Assembly: GCF_009763255.1 (NCBI RefSeq)
Contig: NZ_WSJB01000022.1
Location: forward strand, 186,001 to 250,000
Source: Bordetella sp. 02P26C-1
GTDB taxonomy: Bacteria; Pseudomonadota; Gammaproteobacteria; Burkholderiales; Burkholderiaceae_B
Reading direction: 5' to 3'
DNA length: 64,000 bases
Shown: positions 33,777-38,084 of the stretch, piece by piece
Position numbering within the stretch: position 1 is the stretch's first letter
How the letters are laid out: every line of letters begins with the position of its first letter
Program-made: the position numbers and the translations under genes
The notes under the pieces: generated by a model
What the model saw: the letters and a program-made list of their open reading frames with translations, nothing else
Databases searched by the model: none
Told to the model about the DNA's origin: nothing

Positions 33777-34169
33777 ATGAGCAATATCGTCGAACTCACC
33801 CAAGCCACGTTCCAGGAATCGATCAAGGCCGACAACACCGTCATCATCGATTTTTGGGCACCCTGGTGCGGCCCCTGCAAGGGCTTCGCTCCCGTGTTCG
33901 AGCAAGTCGCAGCCGAGCATCCGGATGTGACGTTTGCCAAGGTCAACACCGACGTCGAGCAGGAGCTGGCCGGCGCGTTGGGCATTCGTTCCATTCCCAC
34001 CATCATGGTGTTCCGCGAACAAGTGCTGCTCTTTTCCCAACCGGGCGCGCTGTCGGCTGGCCAGCTGTCCGAGCTGATGGAAAAGGTAAAAGGCCTGGAT
34101 ATGGAAAAGGTTCACCAGGAAATCGCCGCCGCGCAAGGCGCTGGCAATGGCGGCGCCGAGGCACAGTAA
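33777..34169 (+). CDS. thioredoxin-family protein
   Basis: A 130-residue cytosolic thioredoxin with the active site FWAPWCGPCK (Cys31, Cys34) and the cis-Pro in IRSIPTIMVF near residue 77. A helical C-terminal extension of about 25 residues (KGLDMEKVHQEIAAAQG) is longer than in TrxA and ends in a Gly/Ala-rich tail. It follows yhbW with a ribosome-binding site (AAAGGA) and is followed by a strong terminator, so the two form an operon. Target unknown. Confidence 0.9.
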   Translation: MSNIVELTQATFQESIKADNTVIIDFWAPWCGPCKGFAPVFEQVAAEHPDVTFAKVNTDVEQELAGALGIRSIPTIMVFREQVLLFSQPGALSAGQLSELMEKVKGLDMEKVHQEIAAAQGAGNGGAEAQ

Positions 34170-34221
34170 GCCCGGCGAGACCGTGACGCGCTGAGTGTTA
34201 CGGCAGTCTGGAGTCGCATCG

Positions 34222-34271
34222 ATCCCCGCTGCATGAGCACTAAGGTGCTTTGATGTAGCGGGGATTTTGTT
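34222..34271 (+). terminator. Rho-independent terminator of yhbW-thioredoxin
   Basis: Arms ATCCCCGCT (34222-34230) and AGCGGGGAT (34257-34265) form a 9-bp stem, with further pairing of AGCAC/GTGCT inside the loop, followed by TTTTGTTTG. It starts 52 bases after the thioredoxin stop. Confidence 0.85.
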
Positions 34272-34362
34272 TGCCTCGCCGAATCGGACGTAACGACCCT
34301 GTTTTACAGGAACGCTCTCCTCTCCCCCGGTACTTACCAGGCACTGGATGCGAGGAGCAAAC

Positions 34363-37300
34363 ATGCACCATAAGACTCACACCGCTTGCGCGCGACGTGG
34401 CGCGAGAACGGTCGACCGCAGAGGCGCGGGCCGTCGCGCGCCATTGACAATATCCGTCTTGATCAGCGCGCTTGCGCCTCTTTCGTTCCCGCCGAACGCA
34501 ATGGGCGGGAATCCCGAAAAAGAGGAAGAAATCGAACAGCTATCCAAGCCTGCTGACTCTCCTGCGGCTCATACCTCGTCCGCACCGCTGCACTGGCGCT
34601 TGCGTGAAGTACGCGGAGGCCTGAATAGAGACTGGGGCCTCCTCGATCCTGAGCCAGAAGGCGAGACAACACCCTCTCCCCGGGGTAACTTGACGTCCGA
34701 TCCACTTCCCGAGGCAAAGCGGCAACGCCATGCGGGACGAAGCTTGCCTTCATTGTCGGACGTAGCGGAAAGGCGGGACGATGCCCAGCCGCTGCCGCGT
34801 TACTTGAGTGTTCAGCAACCAGCCGCTGATGATCCCGCGCTCAACGCGATAGCGCACGACCACGGACTTTTCTCTACGCTGCAAAGCCTCATCGCTACGC
34901 CTTCCACATCTGGGTCCTCACCATCGGAACCCGATACAGCCGATGCGGCGCACGTGTCTCCGCAAACTCCCCCCGCGGCTCGGCCTCACCAGGTCTCTAC
35001 ACCGTCAAGCACCCATACCACTAAAACGCACGGGCAGCTGCCGAAGACATTTGACGCGCTGATTCGTGAGGCGGAGCGTAGCACACGCCACCTTGCCATG
35101 CCTTACTCCCCGGCCGCCTTGCCGAATACTACGAATGACGAACAGAGAATCGACGCACACGTGAAGTACGCGATGGCGCGAGAGCACCACATGTTTGCCA
35201 AGCTGGGCCAACTCTTAAGCCCCCCGCCGCAACCTCCGACCTTGACACAGGAGCAGTTGGCCTACCAAGCAAAGCGCCGAGCAGAACTGCAGGAGCGAAT
35301 AGACCGGATACTCGCGTCTAATAACATACTCGACCCCGACGCCTCGCCGCCCGACGCCGAAGCGTCAATACGTGCGACGGTCGCTGCCCAACGCCCCACC
35401 ATTGAAGTCACAACCTCTGCCTCCGGACCCGATGACGCTGGACCCGGGCCGGCGCTGACGGGCGCGGGCCCATTCGGACCCAACCGTGGCGCCGACGGCC
35501 CGGATGACGACGCTGACGATGCCGGTGTTGCCGATAACTCTCCACTCCCGGCACAAGCCCCGCCCTATGTCGAACCCAGCATGGTCAACGATCAGCAAAC
35601 TCACGCCATGGACTCTGTCGATAACGGCGCGGGAGGCGCGGCCGGCGCCTTGAATGGCCGGATACTGGGAAGCCTGGGTGCGTTGGCAGCAGCGCATGGT
35701 AATCAAGAGCGATGGCTCGTTTATGGCGCGGCCTTGACCACGGCTTATGTGGTGGCAACCGAAACGTCCATGGGCGGTTATATCGCCCAAGGCGCCTCGG
35801 ACGCCTGGTCCAGAGCCCGGGGCTTATGGGACAGTCCGTTGGCACCCTCCGTAAATTCACCGGCGACCGGGGGAATCAAGGACACGACGCCGCAGGATAC
35901 GCCATCCGCCGCCGAATCGGACGGGGCACCGCAGAGCATCGAACCGTTGGAGTCGCAAGCGCAGGCCCAAGATAATGCGCCCGACCCTTCAATGTCACCC
36001 AGTACCCATATCAGGCTTGCGGAATCCAGGCATCTGTCCCAGTTCCTTGATCAGGGCAATGACACTTGTCCCGCTGGCCCATCGGACGCGCCATCGCCGA
36101 ATGCTTCGCAGAATCCATCCCCGCCGTCCCCGCCATCCATGCCGCCGGGGCACGACGACATAAGTCCTTCGGAAGACGATGGCAGTCTGCCCGAGGACGG
36201 CTCCGAGGCTGGCTCAGAGCCGGATCCGGATGCTGGTGCAGGCACGACATCGGATCAGGCTGGCCAACCCAATCAGCAGGCGTACCCTCATGTCACAGAA
36301 AACCTGAAGCCGTCTGAAAACGAAGAGGACCCGGATACGTCCAAAGACCTTGCCGAGCAAAGCGAACCAGTCCCCCCAAGCGAAGAAACCGAACAAACCG
36401 CGCAATACGAGGCCGAGCCAACCCACGCGTCGTTGCTGGCCAATGAGCCGCCGGTCGCTTCGCGGCCCGTTGTCGTCTACCCGCAGGCCGGGACGTATGT
36501 TTCCAACGCCTGGGCCGCGAACACCATGTTCCAAATGACGTTGCTCGGCCGCTCTGAAGCCGCACGTGTGGGCAGCTTGGGCGGGCAATCGAACGGCGCG
36601 TGGGCGATGTATGCGGGCTCACGTGGGCGTCTTCGAGACGATTCCGGCAAGTTGGCGACCCAAGGCGACAAAAAGTCGGTGTTAATGGGGTTTGATCTGA
36701 TGACGCGCAACACGCCGGGCGGCCAGTTCAAGGCGGGTTTATTCGGTGGGTACGGTCATTATTACGGTCTGACGCGCTCAAGCGATGTCGCATACACCAG
36801 TCGGGGACGTGTAGACGGTCACGGTGTGGGTGCATATGCAGCCTACGTCAATAATCCTGCGTCCCATCACGGACTGTATCTGGACAATTGGGTCCTGTGG
36901 AACCGGTTCGACAATCGGGTGCGCGGTGGCGACGCGATCTCGGATCGCTATCATTCGAAAGGATTCACCGCCTCGACCGAGCTAGGCTGGCGGATCAAGC
37001 TGGCAGAGCGCAACAACGTGAGCTTTATGCTGCAGCCCCGTGCGCAATTGATTTATCAAAACGTGCGCGCGCCGGGGACGCACGGCACAGACGGCACCCC
37101 CGTAGAGATCGACAATGACTCGCGCTGGCAAACCCTGATCGCCGTTCGTGCCGCCGCACGAGTCCATACTGGATATGCGATCGCCGTGACCCCTCACGTC
37201 GAGGCGAGCTTTTGGCACACCACCAAAGGCTACCGGGTGCGTATGGAAGACGCAACGACTCAGATGAACAGCGGCCGCAATATCGCTCAGTTAAAGCTCG

Positions 37301-37416
37301 GCGTCCAAGGTCAACTCACACGCAACTTGTCGGTGGACCTCGGGGCGTTCCATATGATCGGTCAGCGCGGGTTCAAGGAAACCGGCGGAAATATCGTTGC
37401 GACGTATCGATACTGA
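34363..37416 (+). CDS. type Va autotransporter with a low-complexity acidic, proline-rich passenger
   Basis: A 1017-residue surface or secreted protein. The last ~310 residues (from about 706, QAGTYVSNAWAANTMF, to the terminal aromatic TYRY) match the autotransporter beta-barrel. The N-terminus has a basic region then a hydrophobic segment (LTISVLISALAPLSF), a Sec-type signal. The ~660-residue passenger lacks the beta-helix repeats usual in pertactin-like proteins. It is rich in Pro, Ser, Asp and Glu, with an acidic stretch at about 570-700 and a hydrophobic patch near 450-476. The ATG at 34363 is chosen for its AGGAG site at 5 bases; ATG 34348 is less likely. Function unknown; adhesion is a family-based guess. 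Confidence 0.87.
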   Translation: MHHKTHTACARRGARTVDRRGAGRRAPLTISVLISALAPLSFPPNAMGGNPEKEEEIEQLSKPADSPAAHTSSAPLHWRLREVRGGLNRDWGLLDPEPEGETTPSPRGNLTSDPLPEAKRQRHAGRSLPSLSDVAERRDDAQPLPRYLSVQQPAADDPALNAIAHDHGLFSTLQSLIATPSTSGSSPSEPDTADAAHVSPQTPPAARPHQVSTPSSTHTTKTHGQLPKTFDALIREAERSTRHLAMPYSPAALPNTTNDEQRIDAHVKYAMAREHHMFAKLGQLLSPPPQPPTLTQEQLAYQAKRRAELQERIDRILASNNILDPDASPPDAEASIRATVAAQRPTIEVTTSASGPDDAGPGPALTGAGPFGPNRGADGPDDDADDAGVADNSPLPAQAPPYVEPSMVNDQQTHAMDSVDNGAGGAAGALNGRILGSLGALAAAHGNQERWLVYGAALTTAYVVATETSMGGYIAQGASDAWSRARGLWDSPLAPSVNSPATGGIKDTTPQDTPSAAESDGAPQSIEPLESQAQAQDNAPDPSMSPSTHIRLAESRHLSQFLDQGNDTCPAGPSDAPSPNASQNPSPPSPPSMPPGHDDISPSEDDGSLPEDGSEAGSEPDPDAGAGTTSDQAGQPNQQAYPHVTENLKPSENEEDPDTSKDLAEQSEPVPPSEETEQTAQYEAEPTHASLLANEPPVASRPVVVYPQAGTYVSNAWAANTMFQMTLLGRSEAARVGSLGGQSNGAWAMYAGSRGRLRDDSGKLATQGDKKSVLMGFDLMTRNTPGGQFKAGLFGGYGHYYGLTRSSDVAYTSRGRVDGHGVGAYAAYVNNPASHHGLYLDNWVLWNRFDNRVRGGDAISDRYHSKGFTASTELGWRIKLAERNNVSFMLQPRAQLIYQNVRAPGTHGTDGTPVEIDNDSRWQTLIAVRAAARVHTGYAIAVTPHVEASFWHTTKGYRVRMEDATTQMNSGRNIAQLKLGVQGQLTRNLSVDLGAFHMIGQRGFKETGGNIVATYRY

Positions 37417-37499
37417 CCGATGGCACACTGCAGTGTAAGCGCAAGAATGATGTCCGGATGGCAGGGGTAGATGCGCCGCTGAAGCTCCTGCCAAACACC

Positions 37500-38084
37500 C
37501 TAACTCACGTCCCAGGGTGAGCGGCCGCGCGTGATATCCGCCACCGTGCGCTCAAGGGATTTCAACGCCGCGCACGGTACACGTAACTGCAAACATGCTC
37601 CGTCCCCGTCGAATGTCTCGGCTTCGACGGACGCTCCAGCTTGCTGAATACGCGACTTGAGGAGGGGCAACTCGCTATACGCGCATCGGCATATTACCTG
37701 CCTCGTCTCGATAATGGGCATACGTGGGCCCAGACGCAGACACTGAGCGGCGCAGCCGCCATAGGCGCGGACCAAGCCGCCCGCGCCGAGCTTGACCCCA
37801 CCAAACCAACGCACCACCAGGACCGCCACGCGATCCAGATCCTGGCCCTCAATGGCCTGTAGTATTGGCCTGCCCGCAGTCCCGCCGGGCTCGCCATCGT
37901 CATTGAAGCGATACAGCTGGCCGATACGATAAGCCCAGCAATTGTGAGTCGCCGTGGGATCACTATGCCGGGCGAAAAACGCCATGGCTTCCTCGATAGT
38001 CGCCACGGGGGCCGCATAGGCTGCAAAGCGGCTTTTCTTGATCTCTTCTTCGTAGGCGCACGGGGCGCTCAATGTGTCGCTCAT
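37500..38084 (-). CDS. YigZ/IMPACT-family protein
   Basis: A 194-residue protein of the YigZ (UPF0029, IMPACT N-terminal) family, with HNCWAYRIG near residue 47, FNDDGEPGGTAGRPIL near 60-75, and VVRWFGGVKLGAGGLVRAYG near 90-109. It ends with a ferredoxin-like C-terminal domain. Relatives are implicated in translation regulation but the bacterial role is unsettled. Its upstream gap of about 100 bp to the ABC operon gives no obvious promoter. Confidence 0.92.
   Translation of the reverse strand: MSDTLSAPCAYEEEIKKSRFAAYAAPVATIEEAMAFFARHSDPTATHNCWAYRIGQLYRFNDDGEPGGTAGRPILQAIEGQDLDRVAVLVVRWFGGVKLGAGGLVRAYGGCAAQCLRLGPRMPIIETRQVICRCAYSELPLLKSRIQQAGASVEAETFDGDGACLQLRVPCAALKSLERTVADITRGRSPWDVS

Follow-up and report, generated by a model that had tools for sequence, protein, structure and literature searches.

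The open reading frame at 34363..37416 (+ strand) of Bordetella sp. 02P26C-1 is an intact classical (type Va) autotransporter gene of 1017 codons, with its stop ending at 37416. Judging from the sequence, it seems reasonably likely that a Pro-rich, acidic and largely disordered chain replaces the beta-helix and the autochaperone in this protein, that its export is aided by charge, and that passenger heads have been exchanged in its family. The ATP-free driving force of autotransporter passenger export is a long-standing question, and the gene may serve as a natural test of autotransporter export without folding. Coordinates are those of the window, that is, the whole stretch of 64,000 nucleotides that was analyzed, in which the following features are found.

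34352..34357, + strand: GAGGAG, a likely ribosome-binding site (from the sequence), 5 nt upstream of the ATG at 34363
34363..34506, + strand: signal peptide, approximately residues 1-48 (sequence and KD19 peak; cleavage point inferred)
34507..35046, + strand: passenger part 1, residues 49-228, rich in Pro, Ser, Thr and charged residues, with no secondary structure in a low-confidence model (composition, AlphaFold)
35047..35385, + strand: passenger part 2, residues 229-341, possibly a small helical element, with helices predicted weakly (AlphaFold, pLDDT 31-57 by ten-residue block)
35650..35832, + strand: residues 430-490, two short Ala/Gly-rich hydrophobic stretches and then a possible amphipathic helix (hydropathy, AlphaFold; not above chance)
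36031..36306, + strand: stretch of 92 residues (557-648) without Lys or Arg (sequence count)
36043..36480, + strand: acidic, Pro-rich barrel-proximal segment, residues 561-706 (sequence count)
36481..37416, + strand: translocator, residues 707-1017, with AANTMF helix, beta-barrel, C-terminal TYRY and stop (PF03797, TIGR01414 and PDB 4mee matches)

The protein begins with a predicted Sec signal peptide, as expected of type Va autotransporters, with a long Arg-rich n-region and a hydrophobic core at approximately residues 27-41 (KD19 peak 1.43 at residues 26-44). An earlier note on this DNA had claimed a C-terminal autotransporter beta-barrel, and this is confirmed by matches to PF03797 (E 9.8e-32, residues 746-994, equivalent to 751-999 in the 1022-aa reading) and NCBIfam TIGR01414 (E 2.7e-51). 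The N-side of the barrel starts QAGTYVSNAWAANTMF at about residue 707, and the C-terminus, TYRY, has the terminal aromatic residue of type Va barrels. The barrel is like that of the AIDA-I type (type Va, PF03797 plus AC_1, beta-helix): AIDA-I type models match it, and a PDB sequence search (E up to 0.1) returned a single match, the barrel of the diffuse adherence adhesin (4mee, E 4.9e-29). The passenger, however, is unlike the AIDA-I type, being acidic and linker-like, with neither an AC_1 match nor a beta-helix composition. Promoter and terminator scans gave site counts similar to those in shuffled sequence.

The passenger is acidic, appears to be non-beta-helical and is probably disordered. 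The comparison set comprised 44 PF03797 matches from nine congeneric genomes, made up of eight members of the family that shares this barrel and 36 others, some of them cut by contig ends. Over approximately residues 71-708, the passenger has 12.7% Pro, 10.3% Gly+Asn, 16.3% VILFYW, 14.1% D+E and 6.3% K+R, whereas the 36 non-family autotransporters have at most 5.1% Pro, 11.4-31.1% Gly+Asn and 21.0-27.6% VILFYW. Its mean disorder-scale value is 0.223, versus 0.112 or less in the same 36, and it falls outside the range of every one of them (36/36) on Pro, hydrophobics and the disorder scale. No protein-scale repeat is seen in the passenger DNA. The absence of Gly-rich strand repeats and the richness in Pro, Ser, Asp and Glu, both previously proposed, are thus borne out, and hydrophobics are few. 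TOP-IDP values above 0.2 cover 60% of the passenger, compared with 0% of the barrel. For FoldIndex, negative values extend over 66% and 23% of passenger and barrel, respectively; this test is weak and discriminates poorly, given that in one paralogue up to 64% of the barrel is flagged as well. The Kyte-Doolittle and Eisenberg scales were also applied.

Pfam matches only the barrel, and no known passenger or autochaperone domain. The passenger carries no RGD motif. Searches for passenger relatives gave none in eight other congeneric genomes (query residues 1-700, cut-off E 0.001), none in a further 398 genomes of the order (query residues 46-579, cut-off E 0.0001; in many of these, scoring covered only three of the first-look candidates) and none in plasmids. 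A genome contig scan returned three loci, all from Bordetella genomosp. 4 AU9919, which match from residue 578, 633 or 703 onward. The proposal of a disordered, non-beta-helical passenger is supported in part: composition, the lack of Pfam passenger and AC_1 matches, TOP-IDP and the comparison with 36 autotransporters argue for it, while FoldIndex discriminates too poorly and the structure model is too poor to contribute. In that model (AlphaFold, four-row alignment; mean pLDDT 31.9, pTM 0.22) the barrel is no more confident than the passenger, and the model therefore speaks neither for nor against disorder.

The acidic low-complexity zone described in the earlier note is found as claimed, with 27 D+E, 2 K+R and 22 Pro in residues 561-680. 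Over the 120 residues that precede the barrel, net charges of the eight family members are -31, -27, -25, -24, -15, -15, -12 and -4, versus -11 to +2 in the 36 non-family autotransporters (Mann-Whitney p 0.0003, although the p-values of this linker comparison are too small, as the compared sequences are related). Seven of the eight members are thus more acidic here than any of the 36. The same residues contain 6.7-16.7% Pro in the eight members versus 0.8-8.3% in the others, and 8.3-19.2% VILFYWM versus 18.3-32.5%. The exception, at a net charge of -4, is G5_787, the member matching AC_1, and counts against the main reading.

Eight genes carry this barrel: the window gene and three paralogues in the 4.1 Mb window genome, and four genes in G005 (Bordetella genomosp. 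4). Seven other congeneric genomes have no barrel match at E 1e-20 or better, and across 250 genomes of the taxonomic family a match at 1e-45 is found in three: the window genome, G005 and G108. In seven of these genes the frame stays open to the end of the barrel. The eighth, in G005 (L029 1975-4555), is broken into two open frames in its barrel region, perhaps as a pseudogene or through a sequencing error, and was left out of the barrel tree. In the tree of 44 barrels, the seven members group as one clade (support 96/92), and G108 adjoins this clade (94/95), its long branch being marked as unsure by the tree program. By eye, the paralogue G0_402 (window genome, C13; L030 4217-7930) has a head of several hundred residues that is duplicated, Ala-rich and helix-like and includes hydrophobic segments, which is unusual for an autotransporter.

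AC_1 is matched in G108 and in the member G5_787, with no match in the window protein at E up to 1. The profile catches only 4 of the 44 genus autotransporters, so a missing match is weak evidence that the autochaperone is absent. Nevertheless, the matches next to the clade and within it suggest that the absence of AC_1 from the window gene is probably a loss. The heads of G0_299 and G5_787 are alike (BLAST E 2e-28), G0_299 itself falling below an AC_1 match. These two are nested inside the clade and are not basal, which counts against the main reading; the beta-type head would thus have disappeared on more than one occasion, or moved from one copy to another. Among the remaining passengers, E values from BLAST run without composition correction reach approximately 6e-9, mostly in low-complexity sequence, and phmmer gives none better than 0.006. 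The heads may have been exchanged, or may have diverged too far to be recognized, while the acidic Pro-rich linker and the barrel persisted.

The gene lies between trxA and yigZ (window 34169-37500), an interval that bears an autotransporter in two species and is short and without such a gene in six congeners. The survey covered the window genome, G005 and six other congeners, with G004 left out. The interval is 3330 bp in the window and approximately 2.0 kb between match ends in G005, each with one autotransporter; in the other six, where the gene is absent, 58-99 bp separate the tblastn match ends. The same-site proteins differ in length (1017 aa in the window, 581 aa in G005), and the similarity of their passengers is not significant, with 137 of 300 shuffles reaching the score. 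By score, the G005 passenger is the less disordered of the two (FoldIndex below 0 over 41%, TOP-IDP above 0.2 over 25%), which counts against the main reading. In the tree, the window barrel pairs with the paralogue G0_402 (88/58, weak) and not with the same-site G005 barrel. Thus, either there has been recombination between copies or the barrel tree lacks resolution.

Under the preferred reading, Sec would deliver the protein, Bam would assemble the barrel, and the passenger chain would cross outward with its C-terminus first. The acidic, K/R-poor and Pro-rich residues 561-706 would then be the first to emerge and, as this segment passes first, export would rely on its negative charge and on the lack of periplasmic folding, not on outward folding of a beta-helix. 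Different passenger heads could be swapped on the acidic linker and barrel. We infer both the disorder in vivo and the charge mechanism. In the folding model, which was later challenged, folding of a beta-helix outside the cell is the driver of export (PMC3419190); a disordered segment has been secreted efficiently, with acidic residues critical, and natural autotransporter passengers are mostly acidic (PMC4174580). Kang'ethe and Bernstein (2013, cited in PMC4174580) used autotransporter constructs with the disordered receptor domain of a B. pertussis RTX toxin. These are like the window protein, whose disorder is predicted from composition, in that an autotransporter barrel bears a passenger segment that is acidic and disordered; however, the disordered segment was engineered (an EspP chimera with more than 200 such residues is mentioned in PMC4174580), whereas the window gene is a candidate from nature, and its passenger has approximately 655 residues.

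Within Bordetella, TcfA of B. pertussis and TynE of B. parapertussis have a common barrel and distinct passengers, and the passengers of TynE and its B. bronchiseptica homologue are described as short and Pro-rich (PMC3419190). The present family resembles these in combining a Bordetella barrel with passengers that differ between species, and the window passenger, with 12.7% Pro, is Pro-rich in the manner of TynE and the B. bronchiseptica homologue. TcfA, TynE and the homologue are, however, of 491-647 residues (PMC3419190), compared with 1017 in the window protein, whose passenger of approximately 655 residues is markedly acidic. Distinct and sometimes Pro-rich passengers on a shared Bordetella barrel (PMC3419190) and charge-dependent export (PMC4174580) are known in outline. 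In the literature covered, which has most subscription papers outside its scope, no description was found of a family of natural autotransporters that combines exchanged heads with a pre-barrel segment that is consistently acidic and Pro-rich, nor any paper on Bordetella genomosp. autotransporters. By analogy with TcfA and TynE passengers, the passenger may act as a flexible surface chain, adhesive or shielding, that varies between species. It is possible, though we put it forward tentatively, that these genes represent a natural autotransporter lineage without fold-driven export, in which an acidic, K/R-poor disordered segment substitutes for the autochaperone and beta-helix, leaving the head open to replacement by modules of disordered, helical or beta type, including at one and the same chromosomal site. 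Passengers seemingly unable to fold outward, together with an AC_1-matching relative on a similar barrel, would offer a matched natural test of charge-driven versus folding-driven export.

An alternative that we regard as rather unlikely is that a small folded helical head (approximately residues 229-490) is the working part, with the long acidic Pro-rich stalk as a spacer. The low-confidence AlphaFold model has its first strand not before residue 744 and places helices within 229-341 and 430-478 (229-242, 259-284, 296-319, 332-341, 430-442 and 457-471), so that helices within 229-341 and 430-471 and no strand before the barrel would agree with such a head, but pLDDT over these helices is 26-57 by ten-residue block, FoldIndex is approximately 0 across residues 241-360, and Pfam gives no match. 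Helical passengers have a precedent in EstA, whose passenger is alpha-helical, solved and folded (PMC6555100 and PMC3419190), and within the family by eye in the duplicated Ala-rich head of G0_402 and a similar-looking one in G5_075. EstA and the window protein are alike as autotransporters without a beta-helix (by composition in the window protein); however, the EstA passenger has a solved fold, and none was found for the window passenger. The likeness between the hydrophobic region and the same-site gene is not significant, which counts against such a head. This region has two hydrophobic stretches, at about residues 426-444 and 451-470, with 19-residue peaks of 1.15 and 1.01, both lower than the usual membrane-span threshold of KD19 1.6; residues 430-445 and 451-471 may each form a short helix. 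The earlier note called the patch unexpected, which does not hold statistically: hydrophobicity within the passenger peaks at a mean of 1.49 over 15 residues, and 334 of 2000 shuffles equal this. Conservation of the patch, convincing by eye, was dropped, as its score against the similar-looking stretch of the same-site G005 gene is reached in 441 of 2000 shuffles. Against the whole same-site G005 passenger the score is reached in 167 of 500 shuffles, and the best of the seven family members is G0_C24 (28 of 500). The patch is not counted as a feature of the window protein. We accordingly consider it very improbable that this is a membrane-active surface protein whose residues 430-471 enter the membrane of a target; the two short Ala/Gly-rich stretches, and stronger KD19 peaks elsewhere (up to 1.71 in G0_402, and up to 1.49 past the signal peptide in G5_075), are what suggest it, but the window peaks reach only 1.01-1.15 and are matched by shuffling as above, and strongly hydrophobic inserts were incompatible with one autotransporter display system, reported as data not shown (PMC4252983).

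We give equally little credence to a degraded or frameshifted beta-helical autotransporter, that is, a decaying gene and not a functional design. The passenger is an orphan in the genomes and plasmids searched, one G005 member is split, the passenger, with a GC3 of 0.64, lies below the barrel (0.69) and trxA (0.75), and codon position 3 is the most GC-rich in only 3 of 10 passenger chunks, all of which could indicate decay. However, across 700 codons the coding frame contains 0 stops, versus 11-27 in each of the other five frames, seven of the eight members are open to the barrel end, and all eight linkers are Pro-rich and hydrophobic-poor. A search with nine of 32 alternate-frame fragments, namely the longest reverse fragment and eight fragments of the other two forward frames, yielded a single weak match (E 0.082) below its own cut-off. 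A frameshifted version of a normal autotransporter, which the earlier note had named as fatal to its claim, was thus rejected, with the frame intact.

PF03797 matches at E 1e-8 or better number 14 in the window genome, versus 1-6 in each of eight congeners.
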